Made by a program: the position numbers and the translations under genes
The notes under the pieces: model-generated
Told to the model about the DNA's origin: nothing
What the model saw: the letters and a program-made list of their open reading frames with translations, nothing else
Database searches by the model: none
In this document: in pieces, positions 3,871 to 46,652 of the stretch
Numbering within the stretch: the stretch's first letter is position 1
Layout of the letters: each line of letters begins with the position of its first letter
Origin: Psychrobacter raelei
Lineage (GTDB): Bacteria; Pseudomonadota; Gammaproteobacteria; Pseudomonadales; Moraxellaceae
Assembly: GCF_022631235.3 (NCBI RefSeq)
Contig: NZ_CP093310.2
Location: 248,001 to 312,000 of the forward strand
Direction: 5' to 3'
DNA: 64,000 nucleotides

Positions 3871-3946
<76 letters not shown>

Positions 3947-3956
3947 TATTCTAAAG

Positions 3957-10246: not shown

Positions 10247-10796
10247 TTATATGTCTAATGTCAGCCTACTTTTTGAACCACCACCGAATTTTTTAATATC
10301 TTCACTGACTTTCTGACATAATAGCTCAAGGTCTTTTATCTGTCGGATTTTTTTTATTAAATTTTCTGTATATTTTTCTTCATCCGTTTCTTCATCAGAA
10401 TAAAAGTTTATAAACTCTAATATTTCATTATCAAACGGAATGTCTTGTAATGTTTGTAGCCATTCTTTTGTTTCATCATCGACCGCTTCTTTAATTGCTT
10501 GTTCAAGACAATAGTTAATCAACTGTTTTGCAGAATCATCCACAAACTTTACTGATTCTAGCCATTGATTTTCTGGACTGTCATTATTCACTTTATAACT
10601 GCATTCATCTATAATTTTTGATATTTCGTATCTAGGTCTATTTTCTATTTTTAATGAGTCTAAAACATTCATAAGACTTTCAAAACTCTTGAATGGTCGA
10701 TAACCTTGAGGCATTACAGCTCGTTTTTCCCATAACTTCAATATCGTATCAAAACATTCTTTTTTAGCCTCATTGCAACCATTTTCTGCTAATAGC
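10247..10796 (-). pseudogene. 3' part of a host gene split by the 27 kb IS66-linked insertion
   Basis: This piece begins at the IS66 left end and stops at 10247, directly against the IS3 right end. The apparent ATG at 10802-10804 lies inside the IS66 inverted repeat and is not native. The native protein starts in the segment at 37980-38154. Joining the two after removing one CTAATAGC gives a continuous 238-residue frame (175 plus 542 bases, 239 codons with stop). Landmarks here are CFDTILKLWEKRAVMPQGYR with PF following, and a helical acidic C-terminal half. I do not have a family name. The pattern reminds me of uncharacterised proteins in defence-type islands, from memory only. Confidence 0.85.
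10789..10796. repeat. Left copy of the 8 bp target duplication CTAATAGC
   Basis: CTAATAGC immediately precedes the IS66 left inverted repeat. The same 8 bases recur at 37980-37987. Eight bases is the usual IS66-family duplication length. Confidence 0.9.
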
Positions 10797-10877
10797 GTAA
10801 GCATCTGACCATCCCATCTTTTTTTCTATTAAAAAATGCGAGATAGTGTCCATGAACAAATAATCGTGGACACTAAC

Positions 10878-11273
10878 ATGACAACACAATCTCCTAATAC
10901 ACCCAAACGAAGAACTTACAGCGCTGAGTTTAAAGCGCTTTTAGTAAAAGAAGCGACAGACTCAGGTCGATCAATTGCCAGTATCGCTCGAGAGCATGGC
11001 ATTAACCAAAACCTTCTACATAACTGGAAACGCCAGTATCAGCGGGCACATGCTCAAGCTGACACATTACCTGGCGCTATAAACAGGTCTCATGATCCAA
11101 AGCCGCACTTTATTCCAATTCATCTTGAGCCTGAAGGTGCGCATCTAGGCTCAGCCTCCGTCATACAAAACATCAAACTGCAAATCACAGCTCGAGCATC
11201 TGGAGGTATAAGCCTCAACATTGCCCAAATAGACACTCAAAGCTTGATTGACCTACTACGAGGACTGCAATGA
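10878..11273 (+). CDS. tnpA: IS66 TnpA (OrfA) accessory protein
   Basis: The helix-turn-helix pattern RRTYSAEFKALLVKEATDSG and HGINQNLLHNWKRQYQ is typical of IS66 OrfA. I prefer ATG at 10878 (131 residues). An upstream ATG at 10836 would give 145 residues, and neither has a strong ribosome site. The stop overlaps the tnpB start by 4 bases. Confidence 0.85.
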   Translation: MTTQSPNTPKRRTYSAEFKALLVKEATDSGRSIASIAREHGINQNLLHNWKRQYQRAHAQADTLPGAINRSHDPKPHFIPIHLEPEGAHLGSASVIQNIKLQITARASGGISLNIAQIDTQSLIDLLRGLQ

Positions 11274-11614
11274 TACCCATCACTCACATCTGGCTATCCA
11301 CCACGCCTATGGACATGCGATGTGGTAGTGGCAAACTACTGGCCTACATCCTCACCGAGCACCAAAGCATTCGCCCTCACTGTGCCTACCTGTTTTACAA
11401 CAAAGCAGGCACACGCCTAAAAGTATTCATTCATGATGGGCTTGGCGTATGGCTTTGTAGCCGTCAGCTTGATGACAATAAATTTCATGGCTTAACCAAA
11501 CAGCTTGCCACCACTCAAACTGGCATCAGCATCAACCGTGAACAATTTAATGCCTTAATCAGTGGACTGCCTTGGCGTAACATGGGCAAAGATAAATTAA
11601 CCCCCATCCTATAA
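11270..11614 (+). CDS. tnpB: IS66 TnpB (OrfB) accessory protein
   Basis: A 114-residue protein with the IS66 Orf2 features: THIWLSTTPMDMRCGSGKL, then LFYNKAGTRLKVFIHDGLG and WLCSRQLDDNKF. It overlaps tnpA by ATGA and precedes tnpC by 42 bases. It has no enzymatic motif but IS66 elements need it for efficient transposition. It is intact. Confidence 0.9.
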   Translation: MIPITHIWLSTTPMDMRCGSGKLLAYILTEHQSIRPHCAYLFYNKAGTRLKVFIHDGLGVWLCSRQLDDNKFHGLTKQLATTQTGISINREQFNALISGLPWRNMGKDKLTPIL

Positions 11615-11656
11615 ATAGCAGATGACAGGCAAATAAAACTCTGGCAACATATCGCC

Positions 11657-13414
11657 ATGACTGTTGCCAACTTATCCGACTTATCAAAAGACCCCATTTA
11701 CGCCGAGCTTTTGGTGAAAATCCACCTGCTTGAACAGCGTAATGAGCACCTGCAGCAACAAATTGATCAAACAAACACAAGTCACGATCAACTACAGCAG
11801 CTTTTTAACCAAGTGGTTGAGGAAAACCACAAGCTATATGAACAAGTGCTTGAACTCATCGAAAAACAAAAGCGGCTTATTCACCGGCTCTATGGACAAA
11901 AAAGCGAAGGCATCACTGCCAGACAAACCCACTTAAACTATGAGGCGGCGCAAGAGGACTTAGCGCAGCTTGAACAAATCCGAGATGACTACCTTAGCGG
12001 CTTAAGCCAAGATGAGCTTGCCAAGCTGCCTGCGGTTGATCGTACTGAGGCAGAAACCCTCATCGATGAGGCTGAGCTTAAAGCCGGCAAAGAGATCACA
12101 GATGAGCTGCCAGCTTCAGCTACTGATCAGCCTAAAAAAACAAAGCGTGCCAAATACACAGTGATTCCTGACAACCTTGAGGTCAAAACCTTGGTTCATG
12201 AACCACTCACCACCGTTTGTGACTGCGGCTGTCAAATGAAGCGAATTGGGGAGGATAAACAAGACAAACTTGGCATTATCCCTAAGCAGTTTTATATTGA
12301 GCGTCACATCTACCCTAAATGGGTATGCCGTGAGTGTGACATCATTCATCAAGCGGCTACCCCCAAGCAGATTATTAACAAAAGCATCGCCACCCCAGAG
12401 CTGCTTGCACACATCCTTATTAGCAAATATGCAGACCATCAGCCCCTATATCGGCAGAATATTATCTATCAGCGAAGTGGGGTAAATATCCCCGATGCTA
12501 CTATGGCAGACTGGGTAGGACGCTGCGGCGTTGCCCTTGAGCCTTTAGTCAGTCGCTTGCACGCGCTATTACTGTCTGAGCCTATCTTACATGCCGATGA
12601 AACCCCGGTATCTATCATGAAGAACCATGTAAAGGTAGGTGGTAAATCATTAAAAAAAGGCTATGTCTGGGCGTATCTTACGCCACAGCACAGCTCCTTA
12701 AAAGCGGTGGTCTATGACTTTGCTGAAAGTCGTCGTAATGAGCACCCTAAAGCCTTTTTAGATAAGTGGCGCGGTAAGCTGGTTTGCGATGATTACAGCG
12801 GGTATAAGTTCTTATTTCATCAAGGTGTGACAGAAATCGGTTGTCTGGCCCATGCACGGCGTAAATTTCATGAACTGCATATCACTGGGCAAAGTATCGT
12901 GAGCATTGAGGCATTAACGTTATTTAGGCAGTTGTATGCTGTTGAACGTGAGATTGATGAGCGATTTGAAAAAAATACACCCCCAATACCAAGAGATCCC
13001 CAAATAGTTCGGCAAATCAGGCAAAAAAAAGCCAAACCGATTGCCGATAAGCTGCACCAATGGTTACAAGAAAAAAGGCAGTTAACCACTAAAAATGCCA
13101 GTATTAGTAAGGCGATGGATTATTGCCTGAAACGTTGGCAGGCGCTGACTCTGTATCTAGATGATGGCAGGCTGCCGATTGATAATAATTGGGCGGAGAA
13201 TCAGATGCGTCCATGGGCACTTGGGCGTAAAAACTGGTTGTTTGCCGGTTCGCTGCGAAGCGGGCAGCGGGCTGCGAATATTATGTCCATCATTCAGTCA
13301 GCTCGCTTAAATGGCTTGGATGTGTCTGCTTATTTGACAGACGTGCTAAGACGCCTGCCTACTCAAGAGAGTCTGGATGAGTTGTTGCCTCATCGCTGGG
13401 TGCCACCGCAATAG
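11657..13414 (+). CDS. tnpC: IS66 TnpC transposase
   Basis: The 585-residue transposase has an N-terminal coiled coil with leucine-zipper features (about 20-75). A zinc-finger segment follows, with CDCGCQMKRIGE and WVCRECDIIHQ. The DDE domain shows LHADETPVSIM, LVCDDYSGYKFLF and the Glu in NNWAENQMRPWALGRKNW. The C-terminal part runs to TQESLDELLPHRWVPPQ. It is full length with no frameshift, so this IS may still be active and could have moved the neighbouring adhesin segment. Confidence 0.93.
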   Translation: MTVANLSDLSKDPIYAELLVKIHLLEQRNEHLQQQIDQTNTSHDQLQQLFNQVVEENHKLYEQVLELIEKQKRLIHRLYGQKSEGITARQTHLNYEAAQEDLAQLEQIRDDYLSGLSQDELAKLPAVDRTEAETLIDEAELKAGKEITDELPASATDQPKKTKRAKYTVIPDNLEVKTLVHEPLTTVCDCGCQMKRIGEDKQDKLGIIPKQFYIERHIYPKWVCRECDIIHQAATPKQIINKSIATPELLAHILISKYADHQPLYRQNIIYQRSGVNIPDATMADWVGRCGVALEPLVSRLHALLLSEPILHADETPVSIMKNHVKVGGKSLKKGYVWAYLTPQHSSLKAVVYDFAESRRNEHPKAFLDKWRGKLVCDDYSGYKFLFHQGVTEIGCLAHARRKFHELHITGQSIVSIEALTLFRQLYAVEREIDERFEKNTPPIPRDPQIVRQIRQKKAKPIADKLHQWLQEKRQLTTKNASISKAMDYCLKRWQALTLYLDDGRLPIDNNWAENQMRPWALGRKNWLFAGSLRSGQRAANIMSIIQSARLNGLDVSAYLTDVLRRLPTQESLDELLPHRWVPPQ

Positions 13415-13433
13415 GGGTTGGTCGGATGCTTAC

Positions 13434-13814
13434 CTTGTATGGTGTAAATAAACATTACTAATTTTGAAGCTGTTATTTCTTATTGTTAGCAATATTTCTT
13501 CTCGTAAATTTTTTTTACATTATCCATATTATTGATTTGTATTAATTTTTTTAAATAAAACCATAGAGTTGTTAATGATTAATTGAACTTTGATATATAA
13601 CCTGTATTATATTATTAGGCGGTAAGGTGAGTTTAACACTCTAGCAGCCTAGACGGATATTACTAATAAGTACAATAATCTTTATTGACAAACTAATAAT
13701 TGCAATTGTTAAGTTTTGTTATTCGAAATATGTAAGGTTTTATGCTTAGACCCGAAGCCTAATTCAGTTTAATAAACTGAAGTTGAATAGCTTAAATAAT
13801 TAATAGGTAAGTTT
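13434..13814 (+). other. AT-rich gap between IS66 and the OmpA-like gene
   Basis: About 380 bases with no credible gene. It is donor DNA upstream of the OmpA-like lipoprotein and probably holds its promoter. I see TTGATA-like and TATTAT-like boxes around 13590-13620 but cannot choose among them. A short dyad, TTCAGTTT and AAACTGAA, occurs at about 13761-13781. Confidence 0.4.
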
Positions 13815-14672
13815 ATGATATTTAAAACCCTACTAATACCAAGTGTATTAATCACAATGTTAGCAACAGGCTGCCAATCTACAGCTTTTATGGCTTCAGC
13901 GGATAACCCTATAGGAAGTATAGCAAGTACACCTGTGTCAACGACGGATGGCGTTCGTCAAGTCGACACGGCTCGCTGGACTAAAACGGGTCAAGTATTT
14001 ACGACTCCTGATGATAGTGCATTAGCCGCTAATGAGAGTCGTATTGTTATATTTCGCACGCCTACAGGTGTGTCCGAAGCCACCTCAATAGATGCCGCTG
14101 GCGCTATAGATTTTGAAGACAGTGTCGTTGTTGGTATAGAGAATTATTTTCAAACGTCGTTACAGGCGGGGCACTACTCACAGATTAAGGTTTGTACTGG
14201 CCAAAATGTGTTAAGTGCTGAGCTTACAGACCAAAAAAACAATCACTTGGCGAATCAAAGCCTCATTGTAAGTCTACAGCCTAAGCGCACTTATTATTAT
14301 CAAGTCAGTCATGTAGAAAGAGGAGTTACGCCAGTAATTAGAGCGGTTAATACCTCTGAAGCCATAGAGTTACTTAAAGGCTCTATTGAGCAAACGCATC
14401 AAATCAGCCGAGTTGTCACTGATAACTGTATGCAACCACCCACTCAAACCATTACAACTCATCCAGTGACCACACCTGTAATGGAGACTCAGAAACCGAT
14501 GAATCTTGATGTGCTATTTGATTTTGATAGTGCTCAGATAAAAGGAAAATATCAACAAAAAATACAACTGCTTGGGGAGTATATGCAGGCCAACCCAGAG
14601 GCTACTGTACATTTAGAGAGTCATACCGATAGTAAAGGAGCAGCTGGTTATAACTTGAAATTATCCTCTTAA
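13815..14672 (+). CDS. Lipoprotein with a C-terminally cut OmpA-like domain
   Basis: The 285-residue product has a signal peptide and lipobox (MLATGCQS, cysteine at residue 20). A central envelope domain of about 150 residues follows, and then an OmpA/MotB-type start with LDVLFDFDSAQIKGKY and SHTDSKGAAGYNLKLSS. OmpA-like domains normally continue with RRA and about 45 more residues. Here a stop comes straight after LSS, so the peptidoglycan-binding fold is incomplete. No restoring frame is visible downstream. It lies 111 bases upstream of the adhesin gene, and OmpA-type lipoproteins often accompany Bap-like adhesins. It may be a partner made defective. Confidence 0.78.
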   Translation: MIFKTLLIPSVLITMLATGCQSTAFMASADNPIGSIASTPVSTTDGVRQVDTARWTKTGQVFTTPDDSALAANESRIVIFRTPTGVSEATSIDAAGAIDFEDSVVVGIENYFQTSLQAGHYSQIKVCTGQNVLSAELTDQKNNHLANQSLIVSLQPKRTYYYQVSHVERGVTPVIRAVNTSEAIELLKGSIEQTHQISRVVTDNCMQPPTQTITTHPVTTPVMETQKPMNLDVLFDFDSAQIKGKYQQKIQLLGEYMQANPEATVHLESHTDSKGAAGYNLKLSS

Positions 14673-14783
14673 TAAAACTATTTTAATCACTTCACTTTTA
14701 TCTAATGTAATTAGTGAGATACAAAAATACTTAATGTCCCTTACTACACAATAATCAATACAAATCAAAATTTAGGAAATATC

Positions 14784-17700
14784 ATGAAAACAGTTATCGT
14801 AAAAGTAAACACAGCTACTCAAACCATTGCAGAACATACTGTGGTAACTCAAGACGGCCAGCCCACTGTGATTAAAGCTGTTCAAAAAGTAAACTATGAA
14901 CTTTTTGATCCAGCCACAGGCCATGCACCAAACCATATTGTGACTAAGCGTGTGGGTAATGATTTACATGTGTCAATGGAAGATAATGCCCAAGATAGTG
15001 ATTTGATTATTGAAGGGTTTTATGATGATACAAATAGTGCGTTAATAGGCTTGGCAGAAGATGGTGAGTATTACTACTATGTACCTGATTCAGGTGAAGT
15101 GGTAGATTATGTTACTCAGCTACAAGTTGGCGATATAGAAGGTCAAGCGCTTGGCGGTGAAAGTCAAGTAGCCCCTTGGTGGGTTGGGGCTACCGAAGGC
15201 AGCTTTGATACGCTGCCATGGCTAGTCGGCTTAGCGGGTGCCGGTATCGTTGGTGCTGCTTTAAGCAGTGGTGGTGGTAGCTCAAGCTCTAATGGGTATG
15301 TTCCGCCCGTTGATAATAATAAAAAAGTTGACGACTTAGTTAAAGCTGCTGAAGAGGCTGAGAAAGCGGCAGAAGATGCCTTAGTTGAAGCCAACAAAGA
15401 TGGTCTAATCACCCCTGAAGAGAATCAGAACCTGACTGATCTTAACAACGCGGTGACTGAGGCGAAAGACAAAGCACAAGCTAAGGTTGATGAGCTACCA
15501 GAGAGCACAGGTAAAGATAGCTTCCAAGATCGCTTAGATGTGATTGACGGCATTGTTGTGCCTGGCATTACAGACCAAGATAAAGATGGTTTAGATGACA
15601 CGCTACAAGCAGAGGTTGAAGACTTAGTTAAAGCTGCTGAAGAGGCTGAGAAAGCGGCAGAAGATGCCTTAGTTGAAGCCAACAAAGATGGTCTAATCAC
15701 CCCTGAAGAGAATCAGAACCTGACTGATCTTAACAACGCGGTGACTGAGGCGAAAGACAAAGCACAAGCTAAGGTTGATGAGCTACCAGAGAGCACAGGT
15801 AAAGATAGCTTCCAAGATCGCTTAGATGTGATTGACGGCATTGTTGTGCCTGGCATTACAGACCAAGATAAAGATGGTTTAGATGACACGCTACAAGCAG
15901 AGGTTGAAGACTTAGTTAAAGCTGCTGAAGAGGCTGAGAAAGCGGCAGAAGATGCCTTAGTTGAAGCCAACAAAGATGGTCTAATCACCCCTGAAGAGAA
16001 TCAGAACCTGACTGATCTTAACAACGCGGTGACTGAGGCGAAAGACAAAGCACAAGCTAAGGTTGATGAGCTACCAGAGAGCACAGGTAAAGATAGCTTC
16101 CAAGATCGCTTAGATGTGATTGACGGCATTGTTGTGCCTGGCATTACAGACCAAGATAAAGATGGTTTAGATGACACGCTACAAGCAGAGGTTGAAGACT
16201 TAGTTAAAGCTGCTGAAGAGGCTGAGAAAGCGGCAGAAGATGCCTTAGTTGAAGCCAACAAAGATGGTCTAATCACCCCTGAAGAGAATCAGAACCTGAC
16301 TGATCTTAACAACGCGGTGACTGAGGCGAAAGACAAAGCACAAGCTAAGGTTGATGAGCTACCAGAGAGCACAGGTAAAGATAGCTTCCAAGATCGCTTA
16401 GATGTGATTGACGGCATTGTTGTGCCTGGCATTACAGACCAAGATAAAGATGGTTTAGATGACACGCTACAAGCAGAGGTTGAAGACTTAGTTAAAGCTG
16501 CTGAAGAGGCTGAGAAAGCGGCAGAAGATGCCTTAGTTGAAGCCAACAAAGATGGTCTAATCACCCCTGAAGAGAATCAGAACCTGACTGATCTTAACAA
16601 CGCGGTGACTGAGGCGAAAGACAAAGCACAAGCTAAGGTTGATGAGCTACCAGAGAGCACAGGTAAAGATAGCTTCCAAGATCGCTTAGATGTGATTGAC
16701 GGCATTGTTGTGCCTGGCATTACAGACCAAGATAAAGATGGTTTAGATGACACGCTACAAGCAGAGGTTGAAGACTTAGTTAAAGCTGCTGAAGAGGCTG
16801 AGAAAGCGGCAGAAGATGCCTTAGTTGAAGCCAACAAAGATGGTCTAATCACCCCTGAAGAGAATCAGAACCTGACTGATCTTAACAACGCGGTGACTGA
16901 GGCGAAAGACAAAGCACAAGCTAAGGTTGATGAGCTACCAGAGAGCACAGGTAAAGATAGCTTCCAAGATCGCTTAGATGTGATTGACGGCATTGTTGTG
17001 CCTGGCATTACAGACCAAGATAAAGATGGTTTAGATGACACGCTACAAGCAGAGGTTGAAGACTTAGTTAAAGCTGCTGAAGAGGCTGAGAAAGCGGCAG
17101 AAGATGCCTTAGTTGAAGCCAACAAAGATGGTCTAATCACCCCTGAAGAGAATCAGAACCTGACTGATCTTAACAACGCGGTGACTGAGGCGAAAGACAA
17201 AGCACAAGCTAAGGTTGATGAGCTACCAGAGAGCACAGGTAAAGATAGCTTCCAAGATCGCTTAGATGTGATTGACGGCATTGTTGTGCCTGGCATTACA
17301 GACCAAGATAAAGATGGTTTAGATGACACGCTACAAGCAGAGGTTGAAGACTTAGTTAAAGCTGCTGAAGAGGCTGAGAAAGCGGCAGAAGATGCCTTAG
17401 TTGAAGCCAACAAAGATGGTCTAATCACCCCTGAAGAGAATCAGAACCTGACTGATCTTAACAACGCGGTGACTGAGGCGAAAGACAAAGCACAAGCTAA
17501 GGTTGATGAGCTACCAGAGAGCACAGGTAAAGATAGCTTCCAAGATCGCTTAGATGTGATTGACGGCATTGTTGTGCCTGGCATTACAGACCAAGATAAA
17601 GATGGTTTAGATGACACGCTACAAGCAGAGGTTGAAGACTTAGTTAAAGCTGCTGAAGAGGCTGAGAAAGCGGCAGAAGATGCCTTAGTTGAAGCCAACA

Positions 17701-29700: not shown

Positions 29701-32700
29701 GTTTAGATGACACGCTACAAGCAGAGGTTGAAGACTTAGTTAAAGCTGCTGAAGAGGCTGAGAAAGCGGCAGAAGATGCCTTAGTTGAAGCCAACAAAGA
29801 TGGTCTAATCACCCCTGAAGAGAATCAGAACCTGACTGATCTTAACAACGCGGTGACTGAGGCGAAAGACAAAGCACAAGCTAAGGTTGATGAGCTACCA
29901 GAGAGCACAGGTAAAGATAGCTTCCAAGATCGCTTAGATGTGATTGACGGCATTGTTGTGCCTGGCATTACAGACCAAGATAAAGATGGTTTAGATGACA
30001 CGCTACAAGCAGAGGTTGAAGACTTAGTTAAAGCTGCTGAAGAGGCTGAGAAAGCGGCAGAAGATGCCTTAGTTGAAGCCAACAAAGATGGTCTAATCAC
30101 CCCTGAAGAGAATCAGAACCTGACTGATCTTAACAACGCGGTGACTGAGGCGAAAGACAAAGCACAAGCTAAGGTTGATGAGCTACCAGAGAGCACAGGT
30201 AAAGATAGCTTCCAAGATCGCTTAGATGTGATTGACGGCATTGTTGTGCCTGGCATTACAGACCAAGATAAAGATGGTTTAGATGACACGCTACAAGCAG
30301 AGGTTGAAGACTTAGTTAAAGCTGCTGAAGAGGCTGAGAAAGCGGCAGAAGATGCCTTAGTTGAAGCCAACAAAGATGGTCTAATCACCCCTGAAGAGAA
30401 TCAGAACCTGACTGATCTTAACAACGCGGTGACTGAGGCGAAAGACAAAGCACAAGCTAAGGTTGATGAGCTACCAGAGAGCACAGGTAAAGATAGCTTC
30501 CAAGATCGCTTAGATGTGATTGACGGCATTGTTGTGCCTGGCATTACAGACCAAGATAAAGATGGTTTAGATGACACGCTACAAGCAGAGGTTGAAGACT
30601 TAGTTAAAGCTGCTGAAGAGGCTGAGAAAGCGGCAGAAGATGCCTTAGTTGAAGCCAACAAAGATGGTCTAATCACCCCTGAAGAGAATCAGAACCTGAC
30701 TGATCTTAACAACGCGGTGACTGAGGCGAAAGACAAAGCACAAGCTAAGGTTGATGAGCTACCAGAGAGCACAGGTAAAGATAGCTTCCAAGATCGCTTA
30801 GATGTGATTGACGGCATTGTTGTGCCTGGCATTACAGACCAAGATAAAGATGGTTTAGATGACACGCTACAAGCAGAGGTTGAAGACTTAGTTAAAGCTG
30901 CTGAAGAGGCTGAGAAAGCGGCAGAAGATGCCTTAGTTGAAGCCAACAAAGATGGTCTAATCACCCCTGAAGAGAATCAGAACCTGACTGATCTTAACAA
31001 CGCGGTGACTGAGGCGAAAGACAAAGCACAAGCTAAGGTTGATGAGCTACCAGAGAGCACAGGTAAAGATAGCTTCCAAGATCGCTTAGATGTGATTGAC
31101 GGCATTGTTGTGCCTGGCATTACAGACCAAGATAAAGATGGTTTAGATGACACGCTACAAGCAGAGGTTGAAGACTTAGTTAAAGCTGCTGAAGAGGCTG
31201 AGAAAGCGGCAGAAGATGCCTTAGTTGAAGCCAACAAAGATGGTCTAATCACCCCTGAAGAGAATCAGAACCTGACTGATCTTAACAACGCGGTGACTGA
31301 GGCGAAAGACAAAGCACAAGCTAAGGTTGATGAGCTACCAGAGAGCACAGGTAAAGATAGCTTCCAAGATCGCTTAGATGTGATTGACGGCATTGTTGTG
31401 CCTGGCATTACAGACCAAGATAAAGATGGTTTAGATGACACGCTACAAGCAGAGGTTGAAGACTTAGTTAAAGCTGCTGAAGAGGCTGAGAAAGCGGCAG
31501 AAGATGCCTTAGTTGAAGCCAACAAAGATGGTCTAATCACCCCTGAAGAGAATCAGAACCTGACTGATCTTAACAACGCGGTGACTGAGGCGAAAGACAA
31601 AGCACAAGCTAAGGTTGATGAGCTACCAGAGAGCACAGGTAAAGATAGCTTCCAAGATCGCTTAGATGTGATTGACGGCATTGTTGTGCCTGGCATTACA
31701 GACCAAGATAAAGATGGTTTAGATGACACGCTACAAGCAGAGGTTGAAGACTTAGTTAAAGCTGCTGAAGAGGCTGAGAAAGCGGCAGAAGATGCCTTAG
31801 TTGAAGCCAACAAAGATGGTCTAATCACCCCTGAAGAGAATCAGAACCTGACTGATCTTAACAACGCGGTGACTGAGGCGAAAGACAAAGCACAAGCTAA
31901 GGTTGATGAGCTACCAGAGAGCACAGGTAAAGATAGCTTCCAAGATCGCTTAGATGTGATTGACGGCATTGTTGTGCCTGGCATTACAGACCAAGATAAA
32001 GATGGTTTAGATGACACGCTACAAGCAGAGGTTGAAGACTTAGTTAAAGCTGCTGAAGAGGCTGAGAAAGCGGCAGAAGATGCCTTAGTTGAAGCCAACA
32101 AAGATGGTCTAATCACCCCTGAAGAGAATCAGAACCTGACTGATCTTAACAACGCGGTGACTGAGGCGAAAGACAAAGCACAAGCTAAGGTTGATGAGCT
32201 ACCAGAGAGCACAGGTAAAGATAGCTTCCAAGATCGCTTAGATGTGATTGACGGCATTGTTGTGCCTGGCATTACAGACCAAGATAAAGATGGTTTAGAT
32301 GACACGCTACAAGCAGAGGTTGAAGACTTAGTTAAAGCTGCTGAAGAGGCTGAGAAAGCGGCAGAAGATGCCTTAGTTGAAGCCAACAAAGATGGTCTAA
32401 TCACCCCTGAAGAGAATCAGAACCTGACTGATCTTAACAACGCGGTGACTGAGGCGAAAGACAAAGCACAAGCTAAGGTTGATGAGCTACCAGAGAGCAC
32501 AGGTAAAGATAGCTTCCAAGATCGCTTAGATGTGATTGACGGCATTGTTGTGCCTGGCATTACAGACCAAGATAAAGATGGTTTAGATGACACGCTACAA
32601 GCAGAGGTTGAAGACTTAGTTAAAGCTGCTGAAGAGGCTGAGAAAGCGGCAGAAGATGCCTTAGTTGAAGCCAACAAAGATGGTCTAATCACCCCTGAAG

Positions 32701-35700
32701 AGAATCAGAACCTGACTGATCTTAACAACGCGGTGACTGAGGCGAAAGACAAAGCACAAGCTAAGGTTGATGAGCTACCAGAGAGCACAGGTAAAGATAG
32801 CTTCCAAGATCGCTTAGATGTGATTGACGGCATTGTTGTGCCTGGCATTACAGACCAAGATAAAGATGGTTTAGATGACACGCTACAAGCAGAGGTTGAA
32901 GACTTAGTTAAAGCTGCTGAAGAGGCTGAGAAAGCGGCAGAAGATGCCTTAGTTGAAGCCAACAAAGATGGTCTAATCACCCCTGAAGAGAATCAGAACC
33001 TGACTGATCTTAACAACGCGGTGACTGAGGCGAAAGACAAAGCACAAGCTAAGGTTGATGAGCTACCAGAGAGCACAGGTAAAGATAGCTTCCAAGATCG
33101 CTTAGATGTGATTGACGGCATTGTTGTGCCTGGCATTACAGACCAAGATAAAGATGGTTTAGATGACACGCTACAAGCAGAGGTTGAAGACTTAGTTAAA
33201 GCTGCTGAAGAGGCTGAGAAAGCGGCAGAAGATGCCTTAGTTGAAGCCAACAAAGATGGTCTAATCACCCCTGAAGAGAATCAGAACCTGACTGATCTTA
33301 ACAACGCGGTGACTGAGGCGAAAGACAAAGCACAAGCTAAGGTTGATGAGCTACCAGAGAGCACAGGTAAAGATAGCTTCCAAGATCGCTTAGATGTGAT
33401 TGACGGCATTGTTGTGCCTGGCATTACAGACCAAGATAAAGATGGTTTAGATGACACGCTACAAGCAGAGGTTGAAGACTTAGTTAAAGCTGCTGAAGAG
33501 GCTGAGAAAGCGGCAGAAGATGCCTTAGTTGAAGCCAACAAAGATGGTCTAATCACCCCTGAAGAGAATCAGAACCTGACTGATCTTAACAACGCGGTGA
33601 CTGAGGCGAAAGACAAAGCACAAGCTAAGGTTGATGAGCTACCAGAGAGCACAGGTAAAGATAGCTTCCAAGATCGCTTAGATGTGATTGACGGCATTGT
33701 TGTGCCTGGCATTACAGACCAAGATAAAGATGGTTTAGATGACACGCTACAAGCAGAGGTTGAAGACTTAGTTAAAGCTGCTGAAGAGGCTGAGAAAGCG
33801 GCAGAAGATGCCTTAGTTGAAGCCAACAAAGATGGTCTAATCACCCCTGAAGAGAATCAGAACCTGACTGATCTTAACAACGCGGTGACTGAGGCGAAAG
33901 ACAAAGCACAAGCTAAGGTTGATGAGCTACCAGAGAGCACAGGTAAAGATAGCTTCCAAGATCGCTTAGATGTGATTGACGGCATTGTTGTGCCTGGCAT
34001 TACAGACCAAGATAAAGAAAACAATCCTGCAACTGTGACAGACGCACAAGGTGCTGTTGTAGAAGATGCGGCAGAAACAACCATCAGCGGTACAGTCACC
34101 ATTACAGATCTAGACGAAGGCGAAGCTTTTGCTCAGCCTCAAACAAAACAAGGTGCATATGGTACGTTTAGTGTCAATGAAAATGGTAACTGGAGCTATG
34201 CGCTGGATAACGGTAAACCAGAAGTACAGGCATTACGTGAAGGACAGACTGTTGAGGATATCTTTACTGTAACGAGTAAAGACGGCACAGGTACTGGCAC
34301 AGTCACAGTGACGATCACAGGTACTAATGACCAGCCAAAGCTTGACGTTGTTGATATAGTTGATATAGTTACTGAGATTTATCAGGGCTATGTTGATACC
34401 AGCATGTCTATTGCTGATGCAAATGGTAGCGATATTGATGAAGGTGATGTATTAACGTACAGCCTACCTGATAATAATCAAGGGTATTTTGCGATTGATG
34501 AGAGTACAGGTGTAATCACTTTGACTGAAGCAGGTGTGGATTATATTAATGCCGGCAATGACTTGCCAAGTCAGCTAACAATCATGGTAAGTGATAACAG
34601 TGGTGCAAATAATGATTCAATCACTCAAATTATAGATTTACCTGCAACGATATTAGCAACCAGAGTTGTCTTTGTAGAAGTCACAGATGACTCTAACGAA
34701 GAAGTAGAGAATTTACCCGCTAATCAGAACTCTGCATATGGTGTTAATGGTGTGTATACCGGTATTGTTGCTAACAATAGTGATGGCAGTGTACAAACTG
34801 ACCCTGCTGTTTTACAGGGACTAACCAACGATACAACACCAACGATTACTGTCACTCTCGAGAAACCACTTCGTACAGCTACTTCTGGTATTGCTGATGA
34901 AGCTGTACAGGTTGTCTTGACCCCAACACAGGGCGAGCCTGTCATACTTGATATGGGTCAAGCACAAGTCAGTGCCGATGGCATGACCTATACCTGGAGT
35001 AACTTTACTTTGGCGCAAACACAAGCGCTTGGTAATGACTATCGTGTAGATGCTCAAGTTGTGGCAGGTACCGTCAAGCCTACGTTATCTACAGAGTTTA
35101 CCTTAGATACTCTAGCGGGTAGACCGACAGTATCATTGGTACAAGAAGAAAATGCTTTTGATGGAACCAATGACAGCGAAAACAACCAAGCTAATATTCA
35201 AGTTATCGGTGGGACTGGTGAAGTAGGTGGTACCGTTATCTTCGATGTCAATAGGAATGGCATCTTTGATGCAGGTGATGTCAGTACTGTGGCTGACGCA
35301 AATGGTAACTGGAAGCTAGCAATCTCTGAGTTAGCAGGTAAGTTTGACTTTGCTAATGATGGGGATACTACGACAGGCAGTGCTGAGACAACCAATAGCA
35401 GTGCAAATCGCAATCAAACCAAGGACTTATATGCAAACCTTATGTTTGTTGATAAGGCCGGTAATAAGTTGCCAAATGAGAGTTTTGCCAAGTTCTATCT
35501 GTTTGATGAAACGACAGGTGGCGCTGCTTTCCTTGCTAGTGATGAGCCATTGGGTGCGACTATTTATAATAGATATAATTCTAATGGCAAAAACTCTATC
35601 AACATTAACCAAAGAGGTGAAATTCAAACTGATGGAACAGGTCAGAATGTAGAAGCCATAGTGTTTGATAGTGATAATACTGATAAGCTAATCATTGTCG

Positions 35701-37430
35701 ACGGCAATATGCAAGCCATAGCTGCCCCATTAATTGATTTTGCTGTACTTACAGGTAATGGTAATGATTTCTTCACCCTTTCAGGGCGTCAGTCTCTTAG
35801 AACACATGTCTATATGGGAGAAGGTGATGATACTTACGAAGGCTTTAGAATCAGAGGGTACGGTGGTAGGCCAATAGTTGATTTAGGCTCTGGCAATGAC
35901 ATTCTAAACATAGAAAGCTATGTTAGAACTGCCATTGTGAACTTAGGTGAGGGCAATGATACAGCAAACGTAGGTACCTATATTAGTGATACGGAGGTAA
36001 GACTAGGTAATGGTAACAACTTACTAACAGTAGGCAACTACCTTAAAGAGCGTACAACTATTACTGCAGGCTCTGGGAATGATACGATTAATATTGGTCA
36101 AACACTTAATGATGATAGTAGAGGAGGCGTATGGGTTAGTAATATCAATGCAGGTGATGGCGATAATACTATTAATATTAAGGGAAGATTAATAGCAAGT
36201 TTAGCCAGTGAAGCAGGATATGGTGAGATTATTACTGGGAGTGGCCAAGATAACATTACTATCTCTGGTATTGTCGATGGTAGGAACGCTAAAATCGATA
36301 CCGGGTCTGGAAATGACGTCATTGATGTAGGTGTTATTCAGAGACAAGCCACAGTGATTACGGGTCCAGATGCCTTGACACCTGGTACCACTGATAATGA
36401 CACATTAATAGCTGTTGCTTTGGATGATAACGCACTCGTTAGAACAGGAGCTGGTAATGATATTGTTAAAATTTCTAGCAATATAGTAAATAGCACGCTT
36501 AGTATGGGTTCTGGCATAGATCACTTGCAGGTAAACCAAGTTAGAGGAAACTCTACTATTGATATGGGAGAGGGTAATGACACCGTCAACATGGAAAGAC
36601 TGGGTCAGACATTAGCTAGTACAGGTACCCCTAATTTAAGACTTGGTGCTGGTGCTGACAATCTTGATTTAGGAGTATTGCGTATAGGTAATATATACTC
36701 AGGGAATGATACTGACCAAGATATTATTAATATTAATAATATGGAAGCTGGGTATGTTGAATTGGGTAACACCGATATCCTCAATATCAGTAATTTACAG
36801 TCTGGCACTATTAAGTCTTCGCAAGGTGGTAACGATGTGAGTATTAGCGGTTCCATGACTGGAGGCACTATAGACCTTGGTACCGCCAGAGACGATGTAA
36901 GTATCGCGAATAAGTCAGCTGGTAATGTGTTCTTAGGTGATGGTAATGATACTATTGACGTGACAACACACTCGGGTGGCGATATCGATACTGGAGCGGG
37001 TAATGACACAGTGACTATCGATACCATGTCAGGTGGTAATATCTATCTCGCTAGCGGTAATGATACGATAAGTATTAATACCTTTACAGGAGGCACCTTA
37101 AATGGTGGTGATGGTACAGACACCCTTCACATCACTGGTGGTGGTAATACTTTAAGTTCAAGTAATATTTCAGCTATTGAGGTATTAGACCTAGGAGTTG
37201 GCAATAATGCAAACATTCTAAACCTTAGAAATGATGATGCTCGTAGCAATGGTTACAATAATATCCGCATTGATGGTGATGCTCTGGATACGGTCAATTT
37301 AACTAAGAATCTTGCCGGTCAAAATTGGACTAAAGGATCTATTGTTGGAGATTACACCATCTATGAAGCCACCTACTTTAGCCAAAAAGCTACCATCTAT
37401 ATCGATACCGATATTAAAGTTGTCATCTAA
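14784..37430 (+). CDS. Giant Bap/LapA-type repeat adhesin, 7548 residues
   Basis: Residues 1-135 resemble the BapA N-terminal prefix domain, followed by a hydrophobic Gly-rich stretch (LPWLVGLAGAGIVGAALSS). Residues 184-6411 are 64 full plus one partial copy of a 96-residue unit. Then come a VCBS domain (about 6412-6518, ending TGTNDQP), a cadherin-like domain (about 6519-6625), one or two Ig-like domains and an approximately 450-residue GxGND solenoid (about 6990-7440). The last 100 residues are a likely type I secretion signal region. Such proteins are exported by an ABC exporter and hold cells to surfaces in biofilms. No exporter, LapG or LapD gene is in the window. The start has AGGAAAT 6 bases upstream. 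Confidence 0.92.
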   Translation: MKTVIVKVNTATQTIAEHTVVTQDGQPTVIKAVQKVNYELFDPATGHAPNHIVTKRVGNDLHVSMEDNAQDSDLIIEGFYDDTNSALIGLAEDGEYYYYVPDSGEVVDYVTQLQVGDIEGQALGGESQVAPWWVGATEGSFDTLPWLVGLAGAGIVGAALSSGGGSSSSNGYVPPVDNNKKVDDLVKAAEEAEKAAEDALVEANKDGLITPEENQNLTDLNNAVTEAKDKAQAKVDELPESTGKDSFQDRLDVIDGIVVPGITDQDKDGLDDTLQAEVEDLVKAAEEAEKAAEDALVEANKDGLITPEENQNLTDLNNAVTEAKDKAQAKVDELPESTGKDSFQDRLDVIDGIVVPGITDQDKDGLDDTLQAEVEDLVKAAEEAEKAAEDALVEANKDGLITPEENQNLTDLNNAVTEAKDKAQAKVDELPESTGKDSFQDRLDVIDGIVVPGITDQDKDGLDDTLQAEVEDLVKAAEEAEKAAEDALVEANKDGLITPEENQNLTDLNNAVTEAKDKAQAKVDELPESTGKDSFQDRLDVIDGIVVPGITDQDKDGLDDTLQAEVEDLVKAAEEAEKAAEDALVEANKDGLITPEENQNLTDLNNAVTEAKDKAQAKVDELPESTGKDSFQDRLDVIDGIVVPGITDQDKDGLDDTLQAEVEDLVKAAEEAEKAAEDALVEANKDGLITPEENQNLTDLNNAVTEAKDKAQAKVDELPESTGKDSFQDRLDVIDGIVVPGITDQDKDGLDDTLQAEVEDLVKAAEEAEKAAEDALVEANKDGLITPEENQNLTDLNNAVTEAKDKAQAKVDELPESTGKDSFQDRLDVIDGIVVPGITDQDKDGLDDTLQAEVEDLVKAAEEAEKAAEDALVEANKDGLITPEENQNLTDLNNAVTEAKDKAQAKVDELPESTGKDSFQDRLDVIDGIVVPGITDQDKDGLDDTLQAEVEDLVKAAEEAEKAAEDALVEANKDGLITPEENQNLTDLNNAVTEAKDKAQAKVDELPESTGKDSFQDRLDVIDGIVVPGITDQDKDGLDDTLQAEVEDLVKAAEEAEKAAEDALVEANKDGLITPEENQNLTDLNNAVTEAKDKAQAKVDELPESTGKDSFQDRLDVIDGIVVPGITDQDKDGLDDTLQAEVEDLVKAAEEAEKAAEDALVEANKDGLITPEENQNLTDLNNAVTEAKDKAQAKVDELPESTGKDSFQDRLDVIDGIVVPGITDQDKDGLDDTLQAEVEDLVKAAEEAEKAAEDALVEANKDGLITPEENQNLTDLNNAVTEAKDKAQAKVDELPESTGKDSFQDRLDVIDGIVVPGITDQDKDGLDDTLQAEVEDLVKAAEEAEKAAEDALVEANKDGLITPEENQNLTDLNNAVTEAKDKAQAKVDELPESTGKDSFQDRLDVIDGIVVPGITDQDKDGLDDTLQAEVEDLVKAAEEAEKAAEDALVEANKDGLITPEENQNLTDLNNAVTEAKDKAQAKVDELPESTGKDSFQDRLDVIDGIVVPGITDQDKDGLDDTLQAEVEDLVKAAEEAEKAAEDALVEANKDGLITPEENQNLTDLNNAVTEAKDKAQAKVDELPESTGKDSFQDRLDVIDGIVVPGITDQDKDGLDDTLQAEVEDLVKAAEEAEKAAEDALVEANKDGLITPEENQNLTDLNNAVTEAKDKAQAKVDELPESTGKDSFQDRLDVIDGIVVPGITDQDKDGLDDTLQAEVEDLVKAAEEAEKAAEDALVEANKDGLITPEENQNLTDLNNAVTEAKDKAQAKVDELPESTGKDSFQDRLDVIDGIVVPGITDQDKDGLDDTLQAEVEDLVKAAEEAEKAAEDALVEANKDGLITPEENQNLTDLNNAVTEAKDKAQAKVDELPESTGKDSFQDRLDVIDGIVVPGITDQDKDGLDDTLQAEVEDLVKAAEEAEKAAEDALVEANKDGLITPEENQNLTDLNNAVTEAKDKAQAKVDELPESTGKDSFQDRLDVIDGIVVPGITDQDKDGLDDTLQAEVEDLVKAAEEAEKAAEDALVEANKDGLITPEENQNLTDLNNAVTEAKDKAQAKVDELPESTGKDSFQDRLDVIDGIVVPGITDQDKDGLDDTLQAEVEDLVKAAEEAEKAAEDALVEANKDGLITPEENQNLTDLNNAVTEAKDKAQAKVDELPESTGKDSFQDRLDVIDGIVVPGITDQDKDGLDDTLQAEVEDLVKAAEEAEKAAEDALVEANKDGLITPEENQNLTDLNNAVTEAKDKAQAKVDELPESTGKDSFQDRLDVIDGIVVPGITDQDKDGLDDTLQAEVEDLVKAAEEAEKAAEDALVEANKDGLITPEENQNLTDLNNAVTEAKDKAQAKVDELPESTGKDSFQDRLDVIDGIVVPGITDQDKDGLDDTLQAEVEDLVKAAEEAEKAAEDALVEANKDGLITPEENQNLTDLNNAVTEAKDKAQAKVDELPESTGKDSFQDRLDVIDGIVVPGITDQDKDGLDDTLQAEVEDLVKAAEEAEKAAEDALVEANKDGLITPEENQNLTDLNNAVTEAKDKAQAKVDELPESTGKDSFQDRLDVIDGIVVPGITDQDKDGLDDTLQAEVEDLVKAAEEAEKAAEDALVEANKDGLITPEENQNLTDLNNAVTEAKDKAQAKVDELPESTGKDSFQDRLDVIDGIVVPGITDQDKDGLDDTLQAEVEDLVKAAEEAEKAAEDALVEANKDGLITPEENQNLTDLNNAVTEAKDKAQAKVDELPESTGKDSFQDRLDVIDGIVVPGITDQDKDGLDDTLQAEVEDLVKAAEEAEKAAEDALVEANKDGLITPEENQNLTDLNNAVTEAKDKAQAKVDELPESTGKDSFQDRLDVIDGIVVPGITDQDKDGLDDTLQAEVEDLVKAAEEAEKAAEDALVEANKDGLITPEENQNLTDLNNAVTEAKDKAQAKVDELPESTGKDSFQDRLDVIDGIVVPGITDQDKDGLDDTLQAEVEDLVKAAEEAEKAAEDALVEANKDGLITPEENQNLTDLNNAVTEAKDKAQAKVDELPESTGKDSFQDRLDVIDGIVVPGITDQDKDGLDDTLQAEVEDLVKAAEEAEKAAEDALVEANKDGLITPEENQNLTDLNNAVTEAKDKAQAKVDELPESTGKDSFQDRLDVIDGIVVPGITDQDKDGLDDTLQAEVEDLVKAAEEAEKAAEDALVEANKDGLITPEENQNLTDLNNAVTEAKDKAQAKVDELPESTGKDSFQDRLDVIDGIVVPGITDQDKDGLDDTLQAEVEDLVKAAEEAEKAAEDALVEANKDGLITPEENQNLTDLNNAVTEAKDKAQAKVDELPESTGKDSFQDRLDVIDGIVVPGITDQDKDGLDDTLQAEVEDLVKAAEEAEKAAEDALVEANKDGLITPEENQNLTDLNNAVTEAKDKAQAKVDELPESTGKDSFQDRLDVIDGIVVPGITDQDKDGLDDTLQAEVEDLVKAAEEAEKAAEDALVEANKDGLITPEENQNLTDLNNAVTEAKDKAQAKVDELPESTGKDSFQDRLDVIDGIVVPGITDQDKDGLDDTLQAEVEDLVKAAEEAEKAAEDALVEANKDGLITPEENQNLTDLNNAVTEAKDKAQAKVDELPESTGKDSFQDRLDVIDGIVVPGITDQDKDGLDDTLQAEVEDLVKAAEEAEKAAEDALVEANKDGLITPEENQNLTDLNNAVTEAKDKAQAKVDELPESTGKDSFQDRLDVIDGIVVPGITDQDKDGLDDTLQAEVEDLVKAAEEAEKAAEDALVEANKDGLITPEENQNLTDLNNAVTEAKDKAQAKVDELPESTGKDSFQDRLDVIDGIVVPGITDQDKDGLDDTLQAEVEDLVKAAEEAEKAAEDALVEANKDGLITPEENQNLTDLNNAVTEAKDKAQAKVDELPESTGKDSFQDRLDVIDGIVVPGITDQDKDGLDDTLQAEVEDLVKAAEEAEKAAEDALVEANKDGLITPEENQNLTDLNNAVTEAKDKAQAKVDELPESTGKDSFQDRLDVIDGIVVPGITDQDKDGLDDTLQAEVEDLVKAAEEAEKAAEDALVEANKDGLITPEENQNLTDLNNAVTEAKDKAQAKVDELPESTGKDSFQDRLDVIDGIVVPGITDQDKDGLDDTLQAEVEDLVKAAEEAEKAAEDALVEANKDGLITPEENQNLTDLNNAVTEAKDKAQAKVDELPESTGKDSFQDRLDVIDGIVVPGITDQDKDGLDDTLQAEVEDLVKAAEEAEKAAEDALVEANKDGLITPEENQNLTDLNNAVTEAKDKAQAKVDELPESTGKDSFQDRLDVIDGIVVPGITDQDKDGLDDTLQAEVEDLVKAAEEAEKAAEDALVEANKDGLITPEENQNLTDLNNAVTEAKDKAQAKVDELPESTGKDSFQDRLDVIDGIVVPGITDQDKDGLDDTLQAEVEDLVKAAEEAEKAAEDALVEANKDGLITPEENQNLTDLNNAVTEAKDKAQAKVDELPESTGKDSFQDRLDVIDGIVVPGITDQDKDGLDDTLQAEVEDLVKAAEEAEKAAEDALVEANKDGLITPEENQNLTDLNNAVTEAKDKAQAKVDELPESTGKDSFQDRLDVIDGIVVPGITDQDKDGLDDTLQAEVEDLVKAAEEAEKAAEDALVEANKDGLITPEENQNLTDLNNAVTEAKDKAQAKVDELPESTGKDSFQDRLDVIDGIVVPGITDQDKDGLDDTLQAEVEDLVKAAEEAEKAAEDALVEANKDGLITPEENQNLTDLNNAVTEAKDKAQAKVDELPESTGKDSFQDRLDVIDGIVVPGITDQDKDGLDDTLQAEVEDLVKAAEEAEKAAEDALVEANKDGLITPEENQNLTDLNNAVTEAKDKAQAKVDELPESTGKDSFQDRLDVIDGIVVPGITDQDKDGLDDTLQAEVEDLVKAAEEAEKAAEDALVEANKDGLITPEENQNLTDLNNAVTEAKDKAQAKVDELPESTGKDSFQDRLDVIDGIVVPGITDQDKDGLDDTLQAEVEDLVKAAEEAEKAAEDALVEANKDGLITPEENQNLTDLNNAVTEAKDKAQAKVDELPESTGKDSFQDRLDVIDGIVVPGITDQDKDGLDDTLQAEVEDLVKAAEEAEKAAEDALVEANKDGLITPEENQNLTDLNNAVTEAKDKAQAKVDELPESTGKDSFQDRLDVIDGIVVPGITDQDKDGLDDTLQAEVEDLVKAAEEAEKAAEDALVEANKDGLITPEENQNLTDLNNAVTEAKDKAQAKVDELPESTGKDSFQDRLDVIDGIVVPGITDQDKDGLDDTLQAEVEDLVKAAEEAEKAAEDALVEANKDGLITPEENQNLTDLNNAVTEAKDKAQAKVDELPESTGKDSFQDRLDVIDGIVVPGITDQDKDGLDDTLQAEVEDLVKAAEEAEKAAEDALVEANKDGLITPEENQNLTDLNNAVTEAKDKAQAKVDELPESTGKDSFQDRLDVIDGIVVPGITDQDKDGLDDTLQAEVEDLVKAAEEAEKAAEDALVEANKDGLITPEENQNLTDLNNAVTEAKDKAQAKVDELPESTGKDSFQDRLDVIDGIVVPGITDQDKDGLDDTLQAEVEDLVKAAEEAEKAAEDALVEANKDGLITPEENQNLTDLNNAVTEAKDKAQAKVDELPESTGKDSFQDRLDVIDGIVVPGITDQDKDGLDDTLQAEVEDLVKAAEEAEKAAEDALVEANKDGLITPEENQNLTDLNNAVTEAKDKAQAKVDELPESTGKDSFQDRLDVIDGIVVPGITDQDKDGLDDTLQAEVEDLVKAAEEAEKAAEDALVEANKDGLITPEENQNLTDLNNAVTEAKDKAQAKVDELPESTGKDSFQDRLDVIDGIVVPGITDQDKDGLDDTLQAEVEDLVKAAEEAEKAAEDALVEANKDGLITPEENQNLTDLNNAVTEAKDKAQAKVDELPESTGKDSFQDRLDVIDGIVVPGITDQDKDGLDDTLQAEVEDLVKAAEEAEKAAEDALVEANKDGLITPEENQNLTDLNNAVTEAKDKAQAKVDELPESTGKDSFQDRLDVIDGIVVPGITDQDKDGLDDTLQAEVEDLVKAAEEAEKAAEDALVEANKDGLITPEENQNLTDLNNAVTEAKDKAQAKVDELPESTGKDSFQDRLDVIDGIVVPGITDQDKDGLDDTLQAEVEDLVKAAEEAEKAAEDALVEANKDGLITPEENQNLTDLNNAVTEAKDKAQAKVDELPESTGKDSFQDRLDVIDGIVVPGITDQDKDGLDDTLQAEVEDLVKAAEEAEKAAEDALVEANKDGLITPEENQNLTDLNNAVTEAKDKAQAKVDELPESTGKDSFQDRLDVIDGIVVPGITDQDKDGLDDTLQAEVEDLVKAAEEAEKAAEDALVEANKDGLITPEENQNLTDLNNAVTEAKDKAQAKVDELPESTGKDSFQDRLDVIDGIVVPGITDQDKENNPATVTDAQGAVVEDAAETTISGTVTITDLDEGEAFAQPQTKQGAYGTFSVNENGNWSYALDNGKPEVQALREGQTVEDIFTVTSKDGTGTGTVTVTITGTNDQPKLDVVDIVDIVTEIYQGYVDTSMSIADANGSDIDEGDVLTYSLPDNNQGYFAIDESTGVITLTEAGVDYINAGNDLPSQLTIMVSDNSGANNDSITQIIDLPATILATRVVFVEVTDDSNEEVENLPANQNSAYGVNGVYTGIVANNSDGSVQTDPAVLQGLTNDTTPTITVTLEKPLRTATSGIADEAVQVVLTPTQGEPVILDMGQAQVSADGMTYTWSNFTLAQTQALGNDYRVDAQVVAGTVKPTLSTEFTLDTLAGRPTVSLVQEENAFDGTNDSENNQANIQVIGGTGEVGGTVIFDVNRNGIFDAGDVSTVADANGNWKLAISELAGKFDFANDGDTTTGSAETTNSSANRNQTKDLYANLMFVDKAGNKLPNESFAKFYLFDETTGGAAFLASDEPLGATIYNRYNSNGKNSININQRGEIQTDGTGQNVEAIVFDSDNTDKLIIVDGNMQAIAAPLIDFAVLTGNGNDFFTLSGRQSLRTHVYMGEGDDTYEGFRIRGYGGRPIVDLGSGNDILNIESYVRTAIVNLGEGNDTANVGTYISDTEVRLGNGNNLLTVGNYLKERTTITAGSGNDTINIGQTLNDDSRGGVWVSNINAGDGDNTINIKGRLIASLASEAGYGEIITGSGQDNITISGIVDGRNAKIDTGSGNDVIDVGVIQRQATVITGPDALTPGTTDNDTLIAVALDDNALVRTGAGNDIVKISSNIVNSTLSMGSGIDHLQVNQVRGNSTIDMGEGNDTVNMERLGQTLASTGTPNLRLGAGADNLDLGVLRIGNIYSGNDTDQDIININNMEAGYVELGNTDILNISNLQSGTIKSSQGGNDVSISGSMTGGTIDLGTARDDVSIANKSAGNVFLGDGNDTIDVTTHSGGDIDTGAGNDTVTIDTMSGGNIYLASGNDTISINTFTGGTLNGGDGTDTLHITGGGNTLSSSNISAIEVLDLGVGNNANILNLRNDDARSNGYNNIRIDGDALDTVNLTKNLAGQNWTKGSIVGDYTIYEATYFSQKATIYIDTDIKVVI
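15333..34016 (+). repeat. Perfect tandem array, 64 units of 288 bp plus a 252 bp partial unit
   Basis: The array spans 18,684 bases in one reading frame. Units start at 15333 and every 288 bases to 33765. The last stops after residue 84 (DQDK). All units I compared are identical in DNA, and all are identical in protein. Each unit begins DLVKAAEEAEKAAEDALVEA, which is a helical Ala/Glu segment. It then carries NKDGLITPEE (residues 21-30), which resembles an EF-hand loop, and DQDKDGLDD (81-89), a DxDxDG calcium-type motif. Identity this complete implies very recent expansion or active homogenisation. Confidence 0.97.
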
Positions 37431-37454
37431 CCCAATCTAATCTTTTTGCTTCAC

Positions 37455-37489
37455 AAAAAAACCGCTCTCACTCTGAGGGCGGTTTTTTT
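37455..37489 (+). terminator. Terminator of the adhesin gene
   Basis: AAAAAACCGC and GCGGTTTTTT form the stem, with CTC and GAG extending it toward the loop. The T run follows. It lies 25 bases after the adhesin stop and can work in both directions. Confidence 0.85.
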
Positions 37490-37674
37490 ATGCTTGCAGA
37501 TATATCAATATTTGGTCTGTCTATCCTGTCTATGCAAACCCAAGATAGATTTTTTTAGCCTAAAACTTGATATCAATTAAAAATTTTAATACCCTTACTG
37601 CTTAGTTAAATATCACAGTTGTCTTGTATTACTTAAAGATAGCGTAAATCAGACTAAGGAGAACCTATACGTTT

Positions 37675-37983
37675 ATGATCAAAAAAAAGCCCTACGATCC
37701 TGAGGTAAAGGGCTATAGAGCCTCATCCAACTTTCTATTAGATATTGCCCCTCTTGTACTAACTGCCATGATACTCATGGTGCAGTTCTTCATCTTCAAA
37801 GACTTTACCCCTCATATTCCGCTCGCTTGTGGTATTTTAATCACAGCACTATTCATGGCTGCGCGTGGTCGTAGCTGGGAGGGTATGGAGTCTCGATTTT
37901 TAAGAGTGATTAAGGTCGGTCTGCCAGCAATTATTATCCTTATGGGGGTGGGTATGCTTGTCGGCGCATGGATTATTGCCTAA
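37675..37983 (+). pseudogene. 5' fragment of an NhaC-type Na+/H+ antiporter gene
   Basis: The 102-residue frame has a cytosolic start and three likely membrane helices near residues 25-43, 50-62 and 80-101. It matches the N-terminal end of NhaC-family antiporters, which are about 450-500 residues. Only about a fifth is present. The donor sequence ends at 37979, and the last base of the final sense codon and the TAA stop come from the target duplication CTAATAGC. It therefore marks the right edge of the transposed segment. It is unlikely to be functional. Confidence 0.8.
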
Positions 37984-37987
37984 TAGC
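37980..37987. repeat. Right copy of the 8 bp target duplication CTAATAGC
   Basis: The same octamer as at 10789-10796. The left copy borders the IS66 left end and this one borders the antiporter fragment. Confidence 0.9.
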
Positions 37988-38154
37988 ATTTGTTCTGCAA
38001 GATAGTTTGCCATCCATGCTATGATTACATCGTCATCGTCCTTGCTGAAACTGGCAAGTAACTTTTTACCTAAGTCGATAACTTTTTCTTGTGTCTCTAA
38101 GTCTTCCATCAGCAGATAAGATGAAGGTTTTGCTGTAAGGCAAGTTTCTGTCAT
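37980..38154 (-). pseudogene. 5' part of the host gene split by the 27 kb insertion
   Basis: It starts at 38152-38154 with GAAGGA about 9-14 bases upstream. The N-terminus reads LETQEKVIDLGKKLLASFSK and then WMANYLAEQMLL. Beyond 37980 the frame runs into the antisense of the antiporter fragment, which is foreign. The true continuation is at 10788 and below, beginning AENGCNEAKKEC. An IS3 element starts 24 bases upstream of the start codon, so the native promoter is probably lost or moved. Confidence 0.85.
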
Positions 38155-38227
38155 TATTTATTTTCCTTCTATACGATTGAACCGCCCCGGGATTGTCGGA
38201 GACTCAATTTTCTGAGAGAATACGACA

Positions 38228-40479: not shown

Positions 40480-40499
40480 GGGGTTGGTCGGATGCTTAC
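40480..40499. repeat. Orphan IS66 right end
   Basis: GGGGTTGGTCGGATGCTTAC is identical to the right inverted repeat at 13414-13433, with the same ATAG word just before it but one extra G. The rest of the IS66 is absent and IS5 remnant DNA is fused at its inner side. It lies 11 bases from the stop of the 1043-residue recombinase gene. Confidence 0.85.
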
Positions 40500-46620: not shown

Positions 46621-46652
46621 AAAGTGATTTTAAGTAACTTTGGTGGGTGACA

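Follow-up and report, generated by a model that had tools for sequence, protein, structure and literature searches.

A 27-kb segment between one end of an IS66-family element and a break in nhaC in Psychrobacter raelei: a probable one-ended transposition

The closest described counterparts of the locus reported here are the transposition units of ISEcp1 and ISEc9, insertion sequences (IS) of the IS1380 family, in which a single IS copy moves a large segment by means of its left repeat and a far end that matches it imperfectly, with the target duplication lying at those two ends (PMC12116815). In one such case a 36-kb segment was moved with a far end that had 4/14 matching bases, and the far ends cited for ISEcp1B have 3 to 12 identical bases, one tip bearing a G residue (PMC12116815). 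The transposable modules (TMos) of Paracoccus, which are formed by IS1380-family elements, likewise consist of one IS copy together with a variable length of the genomic DNA next to it; IS66 elements are given in the same paper with 8-bp repeats, and the parts consulted contain no IS66 TMo (PMC3281130). Here we describe a 64,000 nt stretch of Psychrobacter raelei DNA (hereafter the window; positions 248,001 to 312,000 of contig NZ_CP093310.2, assembly GCF_022631235.3, equivalent to C1:248001-312000 of this 3.17-Mb genome, termed G000), of which 27,183 bp (window 10797-37979) would constitute one transposition unit, extending from the left end of an IS66-family element to a surrogate right end within the gene nhaC. 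We place the probability of this reading at roughly 0.7. Compared with the ISEcp1 and ISEc9 units, which belong to the IS1380 family, have a 5-bp duplication and were established experimentally, the element here is of the IS66 family with three tnp genes, the duplication is 8 bp, and the events are read from sequence.

IS91 and IS801 are not known to duplicate their target. They resemble the present case in moving neighbouring DNA from one fixed end (PMC3189936) and differ from it in their rolling-circle mechanism, and in the parts consulted the two papers found to name both 'IS66' and 'one-ended transposition' apply the latter term to IS801/IS91. Within the IS66 family, the tIS66 elements with passenger genes (such as ISPa75-fosZ) also have a gene beyond the DDE transposase gene; their passenger, however, lies within both terminal repeats (PMC12888890), whereas here it is found beyond an intact right repeat (13419-13433) and thus not between left and right repeats. 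No case of one-ended transposition by IS66 was recognized in searches of the open-licence PubMed Central literature. The one-ended mode itself is known from ISEcp1-type elements of the IS1380 family, and it is its use by an IS66 element that would appear to be new. The features of the locus are as follows (window coordinates and strand).

10247-10788, minus: 3' piece of the split target gene, 81% identical to the gene product of Psychrobacter sp. I-STPA6b (residues 4-174 of P0001).
10789-10796, plus: CTAATAGC, the left-hand member of the 8-bp target duplication.
10797-13433, plus: complete IS66-family element of 2,637 bp, recognized by its terminal repeats and its TnpB_IS66 and DDE_Tnp_IS66 domains; left terminal repeat GTAAGCATCTGACCA, right terminal repeat GTAAGCATCCGACCA (at 13419-13433).
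10836-11273, plus: tnpA-type gene (HTH_Tnp_1).
11270-11614, plus: tnpB gene (TnpB_IS66, E 1.2e-19).
11657-13414, plus: tnpC gene (DDE_Tnp_IS66, E 3.2e-94).
13434-37979, plus: passenger segment of 24,546 bp, a version of C1:1330126-1357199 (homologous from 13434 to 37979).
13815-14672, plus: gene for an OmpA-domain protein of 285 aa (Pfam OmpA, E 1e-06).
14784-37430, plus: gene for a giant repeat protein of 7,548 aa with 64.9 repeats of 288 bp, adhesin-like by its domains (GA_3, Cadherin_4).
37675-37979, plus: 5' fragment of nhaC, 305 bp (gene complete in the second locus; Na_H_antiporter).
37965-37979, minus: proposed surrogate right end, with 8/15 bases as in the IS66 end.
37980-37987, plus: right copy of the target duplication CTAATAGC (same junction in contig C62 of a second species, G023).
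37980-38154, minus: 5' piece of the split target gene, with 52/58 residues as in I-STPA6b (counted by eye).

As a preliminary description of this DNA had noticed, the octamer CTAATAGC stands at both borders of the moved segment, on the plus strand in each case (10789-10796 and 37980-37987). These borders are defined independently of the octamer: the left one is the left tip of IS66, and the right one is the base at which homology to another version of the locus, elsewhere on the same chromosome, ends (37979 = C1:1357199). A third match to CTAATAGC occurs in the window at 60980-60987 (minus strand), so that three are observed against 3.04 expected, and the count is at chance level. Its placement is not a matter of chance, because both copies sit at independently defined borders, and a match at one preset place has a probability of ∼1.5e-5 (4^-8). 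On the same strand, the octamer occurs once in the 50.6 kb to the right of IS66, at 37980.

The element itself possesses the tnpA, tnpB and DDE tnpC genes of the IS66 family, repeats starting GTAA and an 8-bp duplication, which for the window copy involves the distant border. It is flanked by CTAATAGC on the left and CTTGTATG on the right (after 13433), and therefore IS66 alone is without a duplication; only when its left end is paired with the distant border is an 8-bp duplication seen, placing the two target copies at an IS end and at the far border of the segment. That 8 bp is the hallmark of this element, as had been claimed, is borne out by related copies, since 17 of the 20 in which both ends were read have perfect 8-bp duplications, the exceptions being the window copy, one copy in genome G111 and one in G005. 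Copies that are only partial and ends that stand singly are left out of this count, as is a rearranged copy in G111, the ends of which, read in L152 and L162, do not match (17/21 if it is included). Several IS66 copies, 91-97% alike, are present in the P. raelei genome, and neither CTAATAGC nor CTTGTATG was found beside any other IS66 end read there. A search of plasmids returned four records with distant Moraxella IS66 matches. At position 10 of the left repeat (window 10806) the window copy has T, where the other ends compared have C.

An intact form of the target gene was identified in Psychrobacter sp. I-STPA6b (L109:3847-4533, 228 aa), where the frame crosses the insertion point (...YLAEQMLLAEKGCNEAKKECF...) and the DNA contains a single octamer. 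More distant relatives in G010 and G033 are frames of 264 residues, contiguous over the join and 38% identical to the 3' piece; the uninterrupted gene that we were directed to look for in related genomes is thus present in I-STPA6b, G010 and G033. The 3' piece was matched in 4/96 genomes searched (G000, G003, G010 and G033). The rejoined frame of 239 codons that had been described agrees with the arithmetic (175 + 542 bases), the pieces having been compared with natural intact genes rather than joined. Judged from these alignments, the target is a formerly whole gene that was cut in two, with 8 bp duplicated.

The second version of the source locus, at C1:1330126-1357199, comprises a second OmpA gene, a second giant repeat-protein gene and a complete nhaC. 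Its alignment to the window opens at 13434, the first base past IS66, and closes at 37979, the last base before the octamer; past the two break points, the second locus continues with different upstream sequence and with the remainder of nhaC. It has no IS66 there, and CTTGTATG occurs once in the 40 kb read. Homology thus sets both ends of the passenger segment without recourse to the octamer. Identity between the two versions is 96.4% upstream, 99.0% in the OmpA gene and 97.5% at the start of the adhesin gene, with unaligned stretches between the pieces, followed by 84.8, 74.1 and 93.3% at the adhesin end and 95.6% on the nhaC side. The central repeats comprise 64.9 units of 288 bp in the window versus 23.2 of 315 bp and 22.0 of 279 bp in the second locus, the gene of which lies only partly inside the scanned stretch. 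Among 101 nhaC codons compared there were 12 differences, 11 of them silent, and as a dead fragment would gather mostly amino-acid changes, both versions probably diverged while functional. A recent duplication of the present second locus was rejected on account of the differing repeat arrays and these silent changes; the passenger would instead come from another lineage's version of the locus. Within the window array (15327-34018, 99% match between repeats), each 288-bp unit also contains a mirrored minus-strand frame of 91 aa.

The right junction was found again in the second species, G023, a member of the Psychrobacter group, where 4,511 bp of contig C62 are 99.96% identical to window 34018-38528, a match that runs across the nhaC fragment, CTAATAGC and the 5' target-gene piece. 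The resident nhaC of G023 shares 79.5% identity with the window fragment and 78.6% with the second locus. When the adhesin end was searched for in 105 genomes of the genus, with the two best candidates scored in each, high identity over most of its length was confined to the window and G023, the second locus of P. raelei reaching 74-93%. The uninterrupted gene in relatives, the failure to see a second IS66 copy with a matching duplication, the break in homology at the two predicted bases and the right junction in G023 support the proposal of a single transposition event acting on the left end of IS66 and on a point 24.5 kb beyond the IS; the word 'proven', used in the preliminary description, was too strong.

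We suggest that IS66 inserted before the OmpA-adhesin-nhaC locus in a close relative, and that its transposase may then have brought together the left terminal repeat and a stretch of nhaC resembling an IS66 end, bypassing the normal right repeat. The whole intervening DNA would have been inserted into the small target gene with the usual 8-bp IS66 duplication. The target gene belongs to a probable tRNA-Gly island that would have served as the vehicle. In the inward direction the border within nhaC has the sequence GCAATAATCCATGCG (window) or GCAATAATCCATGCA (second locus), for comparison with the IS66 end consensus GTAAGCATCCGACCA. Including the tip G, the match is 8/15 in the window and 9/15 in the second locus, levels reached by 1.5% and 0.24% of positions, respectively, in the 40 kb around the second locus. 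Within the first 10 bases of the border, seven match the right repeat (0.24% of positions equal this) and six match the left (2.5%). This end-likeness lends modest support to a surrogate end within nhaC, and a weak far end would not be unusual, because the ISEcp1B far ends are cited, in the parts consulted, with the 3 to 12 identical bases noted above.

A number of observations weigh against such a single transposition. When counted more strictly, a match of 8/15 is attained by 3.5% of the positions that share the tip base and by 39 of 1,460 positions within nhaC, and over 30 bases the likeness fades, with 4.8 and 12% of positions doing as well. The normal right repeat is intact and therefore had to be bypassed. 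A donor with IS66 beside a full nhaC locus, for which the preliminary description had suggested a search, was not found, either in 57 genomes with a junction query (no more than 11 best candidates scored in each) or in the 105 genomes of the genus with the adhesin-end query, and the source was not this chromosome's present second copy. The remaining two IS66 copies that lack a duplication (G111 C1:3025048-3027707 and G005 C148:17273-19909) had no matching octamer within the 17-20 kb available on each side, and provide no second case. Furthermore, the left junction was seen in one assembly only, there being no match to the 3' piece in G023. The 550-bp piece between repeats could be absent from the G023 assembly, as the smallest of eight sampled contigs was 1,074 bp; the 1.7-kb OmpA region, on the other hand, should have shown, and window 13434-15300 gave only 66-72% matches in the genomes compared, apart from IS ends. 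The left part may have been lost or changed in G023, and that it is missing argues against the whole unit being there in simple form. Finally, the same final sequence would result from a composite transposon.

Such a composite, with one IS66 before the OmpA gene and another in nhaC, the latter subsequently lost exactly at its tips, is the strongest of the alternatives, and the several IS66 copies in the genome speak for it. Nevertheless, we consider it unlikely, and rate it below a single transposition because it calls for a further loss, exact to the base and in the absence of flanking repeats, and leaves the end-like nhaC border unaccounted for. Moreover, there is no IS66 sequence, and hence no remnant of a right-hand copy, at 37979/37980. 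The nearby IS66 piece is a 26-bp right-end relic at 40474-40499, joined to a broken HTH_Tnp_4-type transposase gene and outside the unit, which accordingly comprises a single IS copy with adjacent DNA. This relic was rejected as the right end of a composite because the octamer that follows it is GAAAAAAT and target-gene sequence lies between. It had been stated beforehand that a second IS66 copy with a matching duplication would point to a composite; none was seen.

Much less probable is a route in several steps, in which a plain IS66 insertion in the target gene recombined with an IS66 lying next to a further copy of the locus, followed by an illegitimate far join. The IS66 copies of P. raelei, at 91-97% alike, could recombine; a far join falling exactly on the octamer, however, is not favoured by illegitimate joining and is hard to fit, and neither flank lies beside any other IS66 end read in the genome. 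A chance octamer or an assembly error is scarcely credible even though some three octamers per window are expected and the left junction is known from one assembly, given that both copies sit at independently defined borders, the intact relative has one octamer, and a second assembly (G023) contains the right junction.

Whether the behaviour is general is a more tentative matter: we give slightly less than an even chance to the suggestion that IS66-family transposases, like that of ISEcp1, can use poor surrogate right ends for one-ended transposition across distances above 25 kb. If true, IS66 elements would have a general and overlooked means of acquiring the genes next to them, and the step from which tIS66 elements with passengers arise would be among its results. 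If a single IS66 can move tens of kilobases past its right end, IS66-linked genes at present interpreted as remnants of composites or as neighbours by chance may belong to transposition units. The present case is unusually clean, in that the sequence shows both borders, the empty site and another version of the source locus, and a second species has the right junction as well.

With regard to the target gene itself, the 3' piece has a weak match to Imm5 (E 0.039), and no Pfam family was found for the intact I-STPA6b protein at E 0.01. The gene was not found in viral contigs, and defence-gene models gave no match to six window proteins. Beside the intact gene in I-STPA6b (L109:4863-8743) are genes for an OLD-like ATPase and for a UvrD-like helicase, a pair that we take to be an arrangement resembling the Gabija defence system.

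The unit lies within a probable island of ∼43 kb (window 3898-46702) at tRNA-Gly, where the terminal 54 bp (3898-3951) are repeated at 46649-46702 with 96% identity; an integrase gene is present at 5018-6484. G023 carries window 40511-46719 at 100% identity (rounded; the lengths differ by 18 bp), with the shared sequence falling to ∼80% beyond. The 54-bp repeat, the integrase gene and the stretches common to G023 together suggest that the island, in the part common to both, has moved between species. The shared region includes three minus-strand genes (40511-46429; 1,043, 748 and 185 aa), the first of which has a Phage_integrase domain, and these possibly represent a recombinase trio.

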